From positions 62,001-126,000 of the forward strand of contig NZ_BLYC01000005.1 of NCBI RefSeq assembly GCF_019721995.1: a stretch of DNA of 64,000 bases, in the 5' to 3' direction. Below are positions 6,702-60,585 of the stretch, piece after piece (the stretch's first letter is position 1; each line of letters starts with the position of its first letter). This DNA comes from Bathymodiolus japonicus methanotrophic gill symbiont (lineage in GTDB: Bacteria; Pseudomonadota; Gammaproteobacteria; Methylococcales; Methylomonadaceae). The notes below the pieces were generated by a model, which was given only the letters and a program-made list of their open reading frames with translations, did not search any database and was not told where the DNA came from. The position numbers and the translations under genes were made by a program.

Positions 6702-6996
6702 TCGGGGAGTCGCTATTTTTGCGAAAGCTTGTTTTGGGCATCCCAGCCCAAGCAAGCAGCAAAAACTTAACGCGACCACTTATGCCTCCGGCGGCCCCGA
6801 TTCGTCCTCGTCACCTCGTCCCGACCCAACAAGGGGTCGGAACATAGGCTCCAAATGACTTGACGCCGTGTCGAATGGCCTTTTATTTTGTCTCCACCTT
6901 CGCTAACGCTCAGACTCCGACAAAACAACGGCCCTACGGCTATCGCGGACTAAAAATCATCACTTCGCTTAGGCTACGTTTCCCTGATTTTCAGCG
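6702..6996 (+). mobile_element. B element 1 (295 bp)
   Basis: Starts TCGGGGAGTCGC and ends TTTTCAGCG. Removing exactly these 295 bp restores the ISa sequence gcttta-tttgaaatt seen in intact copies, so there is no target duplication. Confidence 0.9.
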
Positions 6997-7256
6997 TTTG
7001 AAATTATTTGTTGTTCTTTTACGGTGCCTACAGAGTGTCTATTTGCTGTTATAAGTGATTAAAATCAAAAAGATGGAAATATTCGAGTGGTGCTACCTTC
7101 AGGTAGGTTATAGGCTGCTTTGTTTAGGTACTTCTTCTTTCAATGGGAACACTGATGATGTTTATAGCAAACCCCTACTTAATTCCCCTTAGGCAATAGC
7201 ATTTGAAACGAATGAAAAGACTGTTTTTTTCATATAGTTGTAGCATAGCTTCAATT

Positions 7257-8417
7257 TTACCATAAATAATTATTGGGAAACTTCAGTTTTTTAATCAGTA
7301 ATTCGACTAATAGCTGCTCATAAATTTCTGATAAGGGCTGCAAATCTGCAACAAGAATGTTTTCATTAATTTTATGGATACTTTCATTCAAATGACCCAG
7401 CTCAATTACCTCTGCACCTGTTGGAGCAATAAAGCGCCCATCTGATGTCCCCCCACCAGTATCATCCAGCGTATCAAGGCCGGTCACTTGTTTAATTGCT
7501 GCATGAGCCGCGTCAATTAACGCCCCGCCTGAGGTTAAAAATGGATTGCCTGACAAGCGCCAGCTAATTTCATAGTCAAAGTCAAAGCGGTCAAATATCT
7601 CTAGCACACGCTGCTTGATGGTCGCTTCATCCAGTTCAGTACAAAAGCGTAAATTAAACAATAACTCCAGCTCACCGGGAATAATATTTTCTGCCCCGGT
7701 GCCGCCATTGATATTGGATACCTGTAAGCTGGTCGGCGGGAAAAACTGATTACCATTATCCCAAACTTCTTCGGTTAATGCCTGTAAGGCAGGGGCAAAA
7801 CCATGAATAGGGTTATTCGCTATTTCCGGGTAAGCAACATGCCCCTGAATACCTTTAACGACTAATTTCGCGCAAAGGGATCCACGTCTACCCACACGAA
7901 TCACATCGGCAACTTGCTTGTCACTCGATGGTTCGCCAACCAGGCACCAGTCAATCTTTTCATTGCGCTGCTCTAACACCTCAACGACCTTGACCACGCC
8001 ATTAGTTGCAGGGCCTTCTTCATCGCTGGTAATCATTAACGCTATAGCGCCCTGATGATCCGGGTACTTTACAATAAAGCGCTCAACCGCAGTGACAAAA
8101 CAGGCGATGCCGCCTTTCATATCTGCAGCGCCACGACCATATAAGCGATTATCTCGGATAGTAGGAATAAACGGTGGCGAATCCCACTGCTCTAGTGGCC
8201 CAGTAGGAACAACATCGGTATGCCCGAGAAAGACAAAAAGCGGTTTATTATTACCGCGTTTAAGCCATAGATTTTTAGTGTCCTCAAAGTCCAGTTGCTC
8301 TGCTTTAAAGCCAATGTTCTCCAGGCGCTGAGTTAATAATTCCTGGCAACCCGCATCTTCAGGCGTTACCGACTCACGGCTGATAAGTTCTTTAAGTAAG
8401 GTTAAGGTATCACTCAT
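7257..8417 (-). CDS. dapE: Succinyl-diaminopimelate desuccinylase DapE
   Basis: M20 di-zinc peptidase that releases succinate from N-succinyl-LL-diaminopimelate in lysine and peptidoglycan-precursor synthesis. Metal ligands are visible: H66 and D68 (GHTDVVPTG), D99 (RGAADMKGG), the SDEEGPA glutamates and the C-terminal HLNESIH histidine. The start overlaps the arsC-like stop (ATGA). The last nine codons (LKFPNNYLW) and the stop are read from MITE-A copy 2. The flank on the other side of the element shows the original gene ended LLIKK-stop. The enzyme thus carries an element-encoded tail, probably tolerated because it is short and terminal. Confidence 0.95.
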
Positions 8418-8755
8418 AATAAAGTCTGGTATTTTTCGCTATTAAAGCCAATCAGTAATTGCTCACCATTATCCAGCACCGGGCGCTTGATTAAGGTAAG
8501 ATTTTTTAACATCAAACTAGCGGCTTTTTCCGCATTCAAGTCAGTTCTTTGCTGATCAGTTAATTTCCGCCAGCTAGTACTGCGCCTATTTAACAGCATT
8601 TCCCACCCCGCCTTTTCAATAAAAACAGCAAGTTGCTCAGGGCTTAGCCCAGCAACTCTATAATCATGAAATTGATAGCTTATCTCATGATTATCCAACC
8701 ACAAGCGCGCCTTCTTTACGCTATCGCAATTTTTTATACCGTACAAAATAGTCAT
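8414..8755 (-). CDS. ArsC/Spx-family protein (YffB-like)
   Basis: 113 residues with the ArsC-family start [16 protein letters not shown]: redox Cys10 followed by the KKA helix start, and a conserved Arg-Pro (IKRPVL) near residue 92. YffB-like proteins are commonly encoded next to dapD/dapE in Gammaproteobacteria; they are thioredoxin-fold proteins of uncertain substrate, possibly glutathione-dependent reductases. It overlaps dapE by four bases. Its stop-side and start-side neighbours show it once belonged to a dapC-dapD-arsC-dapE block. Confidence 0.88.
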
Positions 8756-9127
8756 TATTAATCATCGTTAATTAGTGAAAACCTGGTTGCGGCCCTGACT
8801 TTTAGCCTCATACAATGCCTTATCCGCTCTTTTTAGCAAAATATCAGCATTTTTATCTTGATTATAAGCAGCCACTCCAAAGCCACAGCTTAGGTGAGAA
8901 AATACATCGAACTGATATTGATCAACAATCTTACGTAATTTTTCAGCTAGCAAGCGCCCACCTTCGATCGTCTGCCCAGGGCAAATAATTAAAAATTCCT
9001 CTCCGCCCCACCGGCCCAGGGTATCCACAGCGCAAATGTTATTGTTCAATAACTGCGCCAGGGTTTTTATTGCATAATCACCGGTCAGGTGCCCGTACTC
9101 ATCATTGATATGTTTAAAATGATCAAT

Positions 9128-9422
9128 TTGGGGAGTCGCTATTTTTGCGAAAGCTTGTTTTGGGCATCCCAGCCCAAGCAAGCAGCAAAAACTTAACGCG
9201 ACCACTTATGCCTCCGGCGGCCCCGATTCGTCCTCGTCACCTCGTCCCGACCCAACAAGGGGTCGGAACATAGGCTCCAAATGACTTGACGCCGTATCGG
9301 ATGGCCTTTTATTTTGTCTCCACCTTCGCTAACGCTCAGACTCCGACAAAATAACGGCCCTACGGCTATCGCGGACTAAAAATCATCACTTCGCTTAGGC
9401 TCCGTTTCCCTGATTTTCAGCG
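9128..9422 (+). mobile_element. B element 2
   Basis: Starts TTGGGGAGTCGC, ends CAGCG. Its removal restores the GGDEF codons Ile-Asp-Ile-Asp exactly (junction gatcaat-gtcgatt), with no duplicated bases. Confidence 0.9.
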
Positions 9423-58759: not shown

Positions 58760-58832
58760 CATTGATAGATTTACGCATATCAGTAACGCCGGTCGCCAAA
58801 AACACTTGATTAACAACAAGTCCGTTTATCAT
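58760..58832 (-). pseudogene. IS66 TnpB fragment
   Basis: MINGLVVNQVFLATGVTDMR then KSIN matches the TnpB start; the rest is replaced by the end of the neighbouring IS. Confidence 0.75.
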
Positions 58833-59170
58833 GAGATAGACCTAACCAGTTTCAGAAGCGGCTTTAATGATGCAAGTTCTGTACTGGCACAAATTTCCAG
58901 ACTGAAGCCATTAGAATGAGTCACTTTGATAACTGATGAATCAGCAGGTACGCCTGATCCGTTCAACATGTCCTCTGCAACCAGTGTTACCGGAACCAAT
59001 TGCTTGGCTTGTAACACTGGTGGAGCGAGCGAACTGAATTGCTTTTTGTAATAACTGAAGATATGCGGCTTGATATCATGGGCTTTGCAATACCCGACCT
59101 GAGTTAAACGACTGGCTTGCCATTGCGGTATATGATTTTGCATAGCCGCTTTATTTTGAGATGGACTCAT
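58829..59170 (-). CDS. IS66 TnpA-like accessory protein
   Basis: 113 aa. N-terminal helix-turn-helix of IS66 first ORFs (WQASRLTQVGYCKAHDIKPH then FSYYKKQF) and a C-terminal SNGFSLEI strand. Intact frame, with ggagga upstream. Its stop overlaps the tnpB start (ATGA). Without TnpB/TnpC it is a leftover. Confidence 0.78.
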   Translation of the reverse strand: MSPSQNKAAMQNHIPQWQASRLTQVGYCKAHDIKPHIFSYYKKQFSSLAPPVLQAKQLVPVTLVAEDMLNGSGVPADSSVIKVTHSNGFSLEICASTELASLKPLLKLVRSIS

Positions 59171-59251
59171 AAATTCCTCCTGAGTTAATTGGAGGTATTA
59201 GTCTGCCATTTTTTATATTGGTTTAGAATGCGTACTTTAATTGACGCTTAC

Positions 59252-60305
59252 GTTTAAACGTACTTCCCAAACAAATTGCAGAACTGGAAAGGGAGATTCA
59301 ATCCAAGCGTAACTTTGGTCAAAGTATTGCATTAAGCGATGCTCAGCAGGACTACTATGCGGCAAGGCAATCATTATCCGCAATGAAGCAGCAACTTGAT
59401 GAACATAAACAACTAGCTACAGAATTCAGTTCAAAATTTGCCGAACATGAAGCACTACTCACTGACCTGGAAGGGCTGGAAAAACTGCAGCGCACTACGC
59501 AGGAAAGAGTGGTGCAGATTGAAGCAAAACAGGCTGAAAAATTTCCTCAGGTTAAAATCATTGAGCGCGCTTTCCAGCCTCGTAAACCTTTCAGACCAGA
59601 TTATTCAAGGAATGCAATGATCGCTCTCGTTGGATCGATTCTATTAGGTCTCTTCAGTGTTTGGGTCGTAGATTACCTGACTCGCAAAGAAGAACAAAAT
59701 GCAGCTATCTCTATCTCTGGCCTCAATCTATACGCAGGCACATCACCGAGCTTGATCAACGGTTACCCGCAGGCAAATAAACAGTTATCACCAAGCTCAC
59801 CACAATCTTTAGAGCAACAAAAGATCCCTGCACTTGAATCAGGCTTGCCTAGAGAACTCAAGGTTAAAGAATTAACCACCTTGCTAGAGACTGCTGATGT
59901 TAAAACCAGGCAACTCGTTACTTTATTGCTAAGTGGGCTTTCACTGAACGAAATCAGCAGATTAGATAAAGCACATATAGACTTAGCTGCAGACATCATT
60001 CATATCAGCGGAGATGATCCGCGCACAATACCGCTCTCCCCCACGTTAAAAGCATTGTTTGAGCAGACAGAGCCCTGCCCTGCATGGAGTAAAAACCAGA
60101 ATATCACACCGAAAATGCTCGAAGCCATGCTTATTTATGCAGCTGCAGATGCCGGATTTCCTGAAACACCTGGGATTAACGTAGAATCTATCACCCATAC
60201 TTATATAGTCTATCTGGTAAAGCAGGGAATACGCCTTGCAGAGCTGGAACTAATTATTGGCGACACTGACCCCGCTACATTAGCAAAATATAGCCGCTAC
60301 TCACC
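59252..60305 (+). pseudogene. Exopolysaccharide chain-length (GumC/Wzz-type) protein with fused recombinase-like domain, 5' end lost
   Basis: The frame is open from the IS66 edge. Coiled coil (about the first 100 codons), then the polysaccharide co-polymerase ending IERAFQPRKPFRPDYSRNA and a membrane segment (MIALVGSILLGLFSVWVVDY). After a linker comes about 150 residues resembling a tyrosine-recombinase catalytic domain (LVTLLLSGLSLNEISRLDKA; SITHTYIVYLVKQGIRLAEL; DPATLAKYSRYS) but without the usual Arg/His-x-x-Arg set. C1 element 6 cuts it; removing that gives SRYSPCI-stop. The N-terminal membrane segment and Wzz domain are missing. Confidence 0.7.
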
Positions 60306-60585
60306 CGCTGAAAATCATGGAAACGTAGCTTAGCGAAGTGGTGATTTTTAGTCCCTGATAGGCGACAGGGCAATTCGCTGATTCGACGTGTGCTAGCAGC
60401 ACGCGAGAGGAGCAAGAATTGCATTCCGAATAGCCGTCCAGCCAGTGAGGTAGTAATGACGAAGCGGCTTTTGTGCGTAGTCGTTGCGGACGCAGGGCGT
60501 TCAGGGGATCTCCCATCCGCTGCGTAGGTGAACGAATTATGGCGACAGGAGTCCCGGAATTTCGTGAGGTAGCATGGCGCGCCTG
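60306..60585 (-). mobile_element. C1 element 6
   Basis: Full 280 bp, ends as in the other copies. Removal joins ctactcacc-ttgcatataa, which would give a natural stop to the gene on the left. Confidence 0.87.

Follow-up and report, generated by a model that had tools for sequence, protein, structure and literature searches.

The window, a stretch of 64,000 nucleotides from the genome of the Bathymodiolus japonicus methanotrophic gill symbiont (contig C5:62001-126000 of genome G000, which comprises 4.97 Mb in 109 contigs), harbors 24 copies of three families of short elements designated B, C1, and C2. Of these, 22 are full-length (12 B, 5 C1, and 5 C2), one is a B element interrupted by C2, and one is a split C1 element. 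Where this could be checked, their insertion has mostly occurred without copying or losing target DNA, and all 22 full copies carry a G at the fourth base to their right (+4). Full-copy counts, flanks, and empty-site tests refer to contigs C1 to C5 of G000 (1,599,727 bases, which make up a third of G000); for the empty-site tests, the joined flanks of each copy (60+60 bases) were compared across these contigs. An empty counterpart exists in contigs C1 to C5 for 13 of the 22 full window copies. A preliminary description of the window had reported 24 copies with fixed ends and nearly fixed lengths, which stands except that the left end of B slides by 1 to 3 bases. It had also assigned an empty site inside the window to 14 copies; our count is 11 of the 22 full copies, 8 of them ungapped.

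In the following, brackets give the strand, the first four bases of the right flank, and, for ungapped empty sites, the contig and the number of mismatches. In the left part of the window, 295-bp B elements lie at positions 6702-6996 (plus; TTTG; contig C2, 0 mismatches), 9128-9422 (plus; GTCG), 10076-10370 (plus; GCAG), and 10857-11151 (minus; GATG; contig C3, 3 mismatches). They are followed by a 260-bp C2 element at 12222-12481 (plus; GTTG; contig C4, 0 mismatches), the reference copies of B (295 bp, 12726-13020; plus; TATG; contig C3, 0 mismatches) and C1 (280 bp, 13477-13756; plus; GGGG; contig C4, 0 mismatches), a second 260-bp C2 element at 16198-16457 (plus; GTAG; contig C2, 1 mismatch), and 295-bp B elements at 16968-17262 (plus; AGGG) and 19028-19322 (plus; AAGG; contig C1, 0 mismatches). 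Farther to the right, a 280-bp C1 element at 40025-40304 (plus; GCTG) precedes a 295-bp B element with the variant start TCAGGG at 43816-44110 (plus; AATG; contig C3, 0 mismatches), a C2 element of 259 bp at 44514-44772 (minus; GTTG; contig C4, 0 mismatches), and a 295-bp B element at 45402-45696 (minus; TAAG). The C1 pieces on the plus strand at 46308-46446 (element positions 1-139) and 48544-48663 (element positions 140-259) are taken to be one split copy. Between them, a B element on the minus strand (47989-48541; pieces 47989-48229 and 48490-48541) is interrupted by a 260-bp C2 element at 48230-48489 (minus; GCAG; contig C2, 0 mismatches). The series is completed by 295-bp B elements at 50567-50861 (plus; AAGG; contig C4, 1 mismatch), 51605-51899 (plus; TACG; contig C4, 0 mismatches), and 57344-57638 (minus; ATTG), by 280-bp C1 elements at 52650-52929 (plus; ACTG), 57749-58028 (plus; TAGG), and 60306-60585 (minus; GGTG), and by a 260-bp C2 element at 58211-58470 (minus; ATTG; contig C1, 0 mismatches).

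Exact insertion at a one-base target

Empty counterparts in contigs C1 to C5 were found for 195 of the 386 full copies. Ungapped alignments were obtained for 174 of these pairs (75 B, 62 C2, and 37 C1), and 163 of the 174 are free of mismatches up to 4 nt from the junction. The right flank of the 386 copies has a single strong position, +4, which is G in 378, A in 4, T in 4, and C in none; six of the eight exceptions have a G at +3 instead. Two bases are scarce, C at +1 (12/386) and G at +5 (17/386), each of which makes up 21% of the flanks, and the left flank shows no motif from -10 to -1 (≤0.12 bit). The match to the empty sites extends through +4, and the G is therefore part of the target. 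The preliminary description, in which no common flanking motif had been seen, is therefore corrected by 22 of 22 full window copies and 378 of 386 copies in contigs C1 to C5.

The same base was found outside G000. Twelve other genomes were searched for right ends with up to two mismatches, for which reason some of the ends are degenerate, and 144 of the 150 ends listed, from ten genomes, have a G at +4; there was no match in G018 and G020. The proportions were 83/85 in G015, 20/21 in Methylotuvimicrobium buryatense (G027; 21 of its 29 matches listed), 16/16 in G008, 11/11 in G022, and 5/5 in G009, and, with few ends each, 5/7 in G035, 1/2 in G028, and 1/1 in G031, G032, and G039.

Left boundary and terminal hairpins

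The left boundary of B deduced from empty sites reads TCGG, GCGG, TTGG, ACGG, or ATGG, i.e., the fourth base is always G, and that of C1 and C2 reads CAGG. Boundaries placed by the onset of flank variation read CAGG and CTGG in G008 and CAAG in M. buryatense; in other relatives, e.g., the Methyloprofundus and G096 copies, the start points were cut arbitrarily. An anchored empty site was available for 74 B-type copies. Of these, 60 gave a clean fit, with two bases before GGGG in 56, three in 2, and one in 2; the other 14 were not assignable, 10 of which have the two-base length with a mismatch. The outermost base of B varies (T, G, or A). A start that slides by 1 to 3 nt along GGGG is what would be expected of an end whose cut lies three bases away from any one of several Gs. 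Target and left end, where its boundary is supported, thus seem to be cut by one rule, three bases from a G. On the G-rich strand of the element, which is opposite to the one with G at +4, this rule reads 5'-CNNN/ (the slash marks the cut).

On the G-rich strand, the end characterized by CGCTG has the form /CG(CTG-stem...stem'-TAG)TC and places a hairpin 1 to 2 nt inside the right-hand cut. Five stem sequences were found, all of which pair: AAAATC, TCAGCCC, CCAGCC, TTAATCC (locus L050), and ATCGCC (G096); TCAGCCC and CCAGCC are alike except for compensated changes. RNA folding of the isolated CGCTG end returned this hairpin for most copies, and B alone prefers another fold. A scan of the 1.6 Mb for the hairpin motif yielded 399 sites, 389 of them with C at -4; six sites, including one B2-type end (see below), lie outside known copies, and a reversed-sequence control also gave 6. 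At the other end, B types carry a long nested hairpin with covarying stems (GTCGC/GCGAC, CGCCAAG/CTTGGCG, and GTCCC/GGGAC), a hairpin is also clear in the M. buryatense types, and folding of the C types showed no clear conserved stem there. The minus strand of B folds better than shuffled sequences (z = -4.5; plus strand, -2.9). The conserved hairpins that the preliminary description proposed to look for are therefore present at the CGCTG end in five stem versions, with an unclear picture at the other end of the C types.

Orientation relative to replication

Element-masked GC skew per contig was compared with the strand carrying the G-rich strand of the element. G outweighs C on the plus strand of contigs C1, C2, and C4, whereas contigs C3 (weakly) and C5 have the opposite skew. 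The G-rich strand of the element lies on the G-rich strand of the contig in 306 of 386 copies (binomial, about 1e-32), with agreement in 98/130 copies on contig C1, 72/84 on contig C2, 51/65 on contig C3, 44/50 on contig C4, and 41/57 on contig C5. Copies near leading-strand genes agree in 162/207 cases and those near lagging-strand genes in 118/145; a further 34 copies have no long open reading frame (ORF) nearby. The similar proportions argue that replication, not transcription, sets the orientation.

Abundance, modules, and distribution

In addition to the 386 full copies, contigs C1 to C5 contain 97 partial ones; full and partial copies together cover 5.6 to 9.6% of each contig and about 8% overall. 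Full insertions amount to approximately 240 per megabase (386 in 1.6 Mb), and by extrapolation, the whole of G000 carries about 1,200 full copies; 413 occurrences of the left end of B, TYGGGGAGTCGC, were counted in the entire genome. Lengths are nearly fixed, with 295 bp in 140/144 B, 280 bp in 108/131 C1, and 260 bp in 109/111 C2 elements. C1 and C2 have about 240 bp in common (82% identity), and B and C1 share the final 67 bp (87% identity). A fourth combination, B2, joins the left part of B to the right end CCAGCC...GGCTGGCAGCG, and at three places, minimal elements combine about 45 bp of C left end with a C1/B right end and nothing else; the one measured comprises 100 bp, and one element of about 100 bp has an exact empty site. 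By sequence comparison, B, C1, and C2 are combinations of left and right modules that occur in several genera of the Methylococcales. The three families of the preliminary description are real, and the scheme was too narrow for modules that combine and also form B2 and minimal versions.

Two kinds of rearranged copies were observed outside the window. An insertion sequence (IS) with the ends CTCGATGTTCAAG.../...CTTGAACA is repeatedly inserted at one point of C1 elements (contigs C1:253076-253305, C3:16621-16850, C4:145143-145372, C5:161013-161242, and others); the pieces correspond to element positions 1-230 and 221-280, so about 10 bp are duplicated. Some IS are known to target repetitive extragenic palindromic (REP) sequences. 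Moreover, two inverted duplications of the right-end half plus flank occur at contigs C3:109943-110125 and C5:143101-143283. In both, each flank is the inverted repeat of the opposite one, a pattern reminiscent of replication reversing its direction at the hairpin.

With B as the query, relatives of the element were detected in 30 of 61 genomes (G000 and 60 relatives). In a further, named collection, the matches listed are mostly from methanotrophs of the Methylococcales, including Bathymodiolus gill symbionts and M. buryatense 5G. With C1 as the query, 5 of 369 gammaproteobacterial genomes matched, namely G000, two of the Methylococcales, and two of other families. The latter two (G075 and G096; loci L267 and L268) have a common locus adjoining a transporter-like gene with a 33-bp match at 88%, which, read by eye, looks like a decayed relative with the right end ...GGCGATCAGCG/GGAG. 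In a genome of another family (G059), B pieces with 97 to 98% identity, and one short piece with 100%, reside on very small contigs (C78 to C89) and may therefore be contamination by a co-symbiont. The phage search gave no match to the elements, the plasmid search gave four records per query, all from methanotrophs, and among viral contigs the end pattern was found in 5 stretches on 3 contigs.

The preliminary description had regarded the families as undescribed, and the searches made agree with this assessment: Rfam gave no match at E≤1 for window positions 12000-20000 and implausible ones at E≤10 in one B copy and eight loci, and no published description was found in the open-access papers searched. 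The autonomous element with the same ends that it had proposed to look for did not emerge, and no longer element with these ends was recognized among the 97 partial matches in 1.6 Mb.

Search for a mobilizing enzyme

The Y1 profile had 22 matches in the whole of G000 at the default cut-off and 29 at E≤5; two thirds of this genome were covered by profile searches alone, which a divergent Y1 could escape. The sole Y1 gene recognized as intact encodes a 222-amino-acid (aa) REP-associated tyrosine transposase (RAYT) at contig C5:60392-61057, about 1 kb left of the window. It has inverted AAAGGGGACG-type flanks, and among the 61 genomes, long matches of >50% identity are listed in G049 (76%) and G017 (63%) alone. 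This RAYT was rejected as the mobilizing enzyme because of its own flanks and the lack of a match in three carriers of the elements. The IS200 TnpA loci were discarded as a source, since the copies inspected have other ends, and so were the YRR and MGRSRYK RAYTs, which adjoin other repeats and are without a match in G000.

The RAYT profile matches 41 of the 61 genomes. M. buryatense has five of these matches and four Y1 matches with PF01797, which are RAYT-like on inspection. Given the RAYT-profile and PF01797 results, no intact Y1 subfamily appears recognizable as common to the carriers G000, G027, and G035. Most RAYT genes whose flanks were examined adjoin other repeats, which are GTAG tagged, GGGGTCAG or AAAGGGGACG flanked, or TTCCCACGC hairpins, and where the hairpin motif matched in the vicinity of a Y1 gene, the match was either an ordinary copy of the element or weak and taken for chance (L106, L112/L200, and L292). 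At locus L230 (G006:C129), the opening codons of a RAYT gene contain a right-end half that has part of the gene start to either side of it; this locus was rejected as an autonomous copy, since the partly repeated gene start around the element end implies an insertion or duplication. At locus L226 (G031:C26), three RAYT genes of the MGRSRYK type stand in a row, each adjoining TTCCCACGC...GCGTGGGAA hairpins. At a distance of about 3 kb lies a solitary CGCTGAAAATC...GATTTTCAGCG hairpin of 49 nt, which is followed by ATTG and is the sole element match of G031 (query B).

For Y2 (PF04986), there were 0 matches in G000, G027, and G035; 5 of the 12 genomes searched matched and none of 14 control genomes did. 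TnpB had no match in G000 while its positive controls matched, and RRXRR (IscB) had no match in a search in which no positive control matched either.

Proposed mechanism and alternative explanations

We consider it likely, with moderate confidence, that the elements are non-autonomous and are moved as single-stranded DNA (ssDNA) in trans by a Y1-HUH-like enzyme of the IS200/IS605 or REP type that has a one-base target. The enzyme would cut the G-rich strand three nucleotides 3' of a cytosine (5'-CNNN/), both in the target, immediately ahead of the hairpin CG(CTG-stem...stem'-TAG)TC, and, by the same rule, at the other end of the element (...CNNN/). Because both cuts would share this rule and no staggered double-strand cut would be made, removal of the insert usually restores the target exactly. 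Mostly exact insertion, a single rule, a hairpin at the cut, replication-linked orientation, and copies reduced to their ends fit a single-strand transposition of the IS200/IS605 type, and we infer a single-stranded intermediate, tyrosine/HUH chemistry, and mobilization in trans. IS200/IS605 elements involve ssDNA circles, the lagging-strand template, and Y1 enzymes that read subterminal structures, as outlined in parts of one account (PMC6006769). REP transposases (RAYTs) cut at a dinucleotide, CT or CA, according to passages of another (PMC8266576); low specificity is therefore already known for this enzyme class. The missing duplications make DDE enzymes unlikely, and together with the absence of terminal inverted repeats they bear out the non-DDE, duplication-free mechanism of the preliminary description. 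Its dismissal of IS200/IS605 for want of a fixed target is superseded, because a one-base rule exists and also fits the left end of the element.

A number of observations weigh against this mechanism. Some of the 21 gapped empty-site pairs show target losses at the junction (48, 20, 20, and 4 nt, and one of 3 nt in a nested site), an apparent 6-nt duplication (C1 element at contig C2:24344), or a doubtful 3-nt duplication (B at contig C3:30014). In four pairs the left boundary is shifted by 1 to 2 nt, and the remaining ones are nested, gapped away from the junction, or poorly aligned. Base-for-base restoration of the empty site, as the preliminary description put it, hence applies to 174 of 195 pairs and is not universal. 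Orientation is opposite in contig C1:450001-487036 (5/14 agree), local skew is mixed on contig C3, and the bias is weak in G008 (10 agree, 5 disagree) and M. buryatense (12 agree, 7 disagree, 2 unclear), where it was judged from sampled skew, in the latter by matching copies to the nearest sample by eye. The target consists of one base (C at -4, equivalent to G at +4), compared with 4 to 5 nt in IS200/IS605, and the hairpin lies 1 to 2 nt from the cut, compared with about 19 nt in IS608. As to the enzyme, the 222-aa RAYT has no match in the carriers G020, G035, and G054, the IS200 TnpA pieces in G000 look broken, the RAYT profile has no match in G000 at E≤1e-10, and no Y1 locus examined has the hairpin motif as its own end.

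A broader proposal, which we put forward tentatively as a possibility, is that the elements may form a superfamily of single-strand elements in several Methylococcales genera, occupying about 8% of G000 and moved in trans according to the single-cytosine rule by an enzyme outside the known Y1, Y2, and TnpB-linked types. It is unlikely, if still worth serious consideration, that the elements are moved by an undescribed nuclease or recombinase, other than a Y1 HUH enzyme, that opens DNA, whether single or double stranded, at a distance of three bases from a G. This would agree with the failure to recognize an intact, Pfam-detectable Y1 subfamily common to G000, G027, and G035, with the missing Y2 matches in these genomes and the missing TnpB match in G000, and with a cut-to-hairpin geometry and a one-base target unlike those of known Y1 elements. 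However, symmetry resembling that of C_L/C_R, paired hairpins, and replication-linked orientation are hallmarks of Y1, a Y1 gene may be missing from an assembly of 109 contigs or be divergent, and different Y1 enzymes might serve different genomes.

We regard it as quite improbable that the elements are very large REPs moved by an ordinary RAYT. The frequency of RAYTs in the order (profile matches in 41 of the 61 genomes), the loose specificity implied by CT/CA cutting (in the part of PMC8266576 concerned), and the hundreds of copies per genome would suit REPs, but most RAYT genes with examined flanks adjoin other repeats, the hairpin of the elements lacks the GTAG tag, and the profile is without a match in G000. 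ORF-less elements of the HEARO/IscB or TnpB type with a guiding RNA, for which NNNG would be the transposon-adjacent motif, are very unlikely: a one-flank motif, a structured RNA-like interior, and many ORF-less copies resemble HEARO, but Rfam gave no match at E≤1 in window positions 12000-20000 and, for smaller stretches, nothing plausible at E≤10, the searches for TnpB (controls matched) and RRXRR (no control matched) gave nothing in G000, and copies of about 100 bp without the interior were inserted all the same. Just as hard to credit is an insertion in the manner of retroelements, in which an RNA copy would enter at the replication fork. Strand bias and absent target duplication could also arise at Okazaki primers, but both ends are usually complete (386 full versus 97 partial copies, many of the latter nested or IS split), no tail was seen, and the left end obeys the NNNG rule of the target; reverse transcriptases were not searched for.

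Comparison with known systems

Miniature inverted-repeat transposable elements of the DDE type differ from the elements described here, which as a rule have no target-site duplication and no terminal inverted repeats. Serine (IS607) and IS110-type recombinases need an equal core dinucleotide at both junctions, whereas here the left flank has no strong preference at -2/-1 (≤0.12 bit) and the right end is nearly always CG. IS91/Helitron elements differ by their Y2 transposase, which had no match in G000 (nor in any control genome). ORF-less elements associated with HEARO/IscB are similar in being structured, free of target-site duplications, and flanked by a motif on the right, and they differ in view of the missing Rfam match in the stretches scanned, the missing TnpB match, and the dispensable interior.

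The resemblance to IS200/IS605 is closer and includes the absence of target-site duplications as a rule and of terminal inverted repeats, a hairpin near an end, exact empty sites, and an orientation tied to replication, as insertion linked to the lagging-strand template would give. The target motif beside one end reappears at the opposite end of the element, which corresponds to the C_L/C_R logic of Y1 elements. Palindrome-associated transposable elements (PATEs) are non-autonomous derivatives of the IS200/IS605 family. Nevertheless, no tnpA with matching ends was found among the IS200 copies and Y1 loci examined, and because the 4- to 5-nt target fails as well, the elements were not filed as IS200/IS605 derivatives.

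With REPs or REPINs and their RAYT (TnpA_REP), the elements share hundreds of short, hairpin-tipped copies and loose cleavage at a C-containing site, the latter as given in the relevant passages of PMC8266576. They differ in their size of 100 to 300 bp and their frequent insertion into repeated sequences such as IS, in the tag, for which the families compared have CGCTG, apart from one degenerate copy, and not GTAG/GTGG, and in that no RAYT flanked by the elements as its own repeats was present in the loci examined, which carry different repeats or lack them, the contact at L230 aside. They were not classified as REPs because both the GTAG tag and the RAYT association fail. With one target base and usually no scar, such an element amounts to a near-random single-strand inserter. 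Identification of the enzyme behind it would test the extent to which target recognition by HUH enzymes can relax, could yield a new tool for DNA insertion, and would reveal how about 240 insertions of this kind per megabase are tolerated by a bacterium. CGTC-tagged REPs, palindromic repeats of 20 to 40 bp that are mostly alphaproteobacterial, are reported in portions of PMC3733652 to have no dedicated transposase. In this respect they are like the elements of the methanotrophs, from which they differ in length and tag sequence, and the enzyme bears on what moves such "orphan" palindromic repeats.

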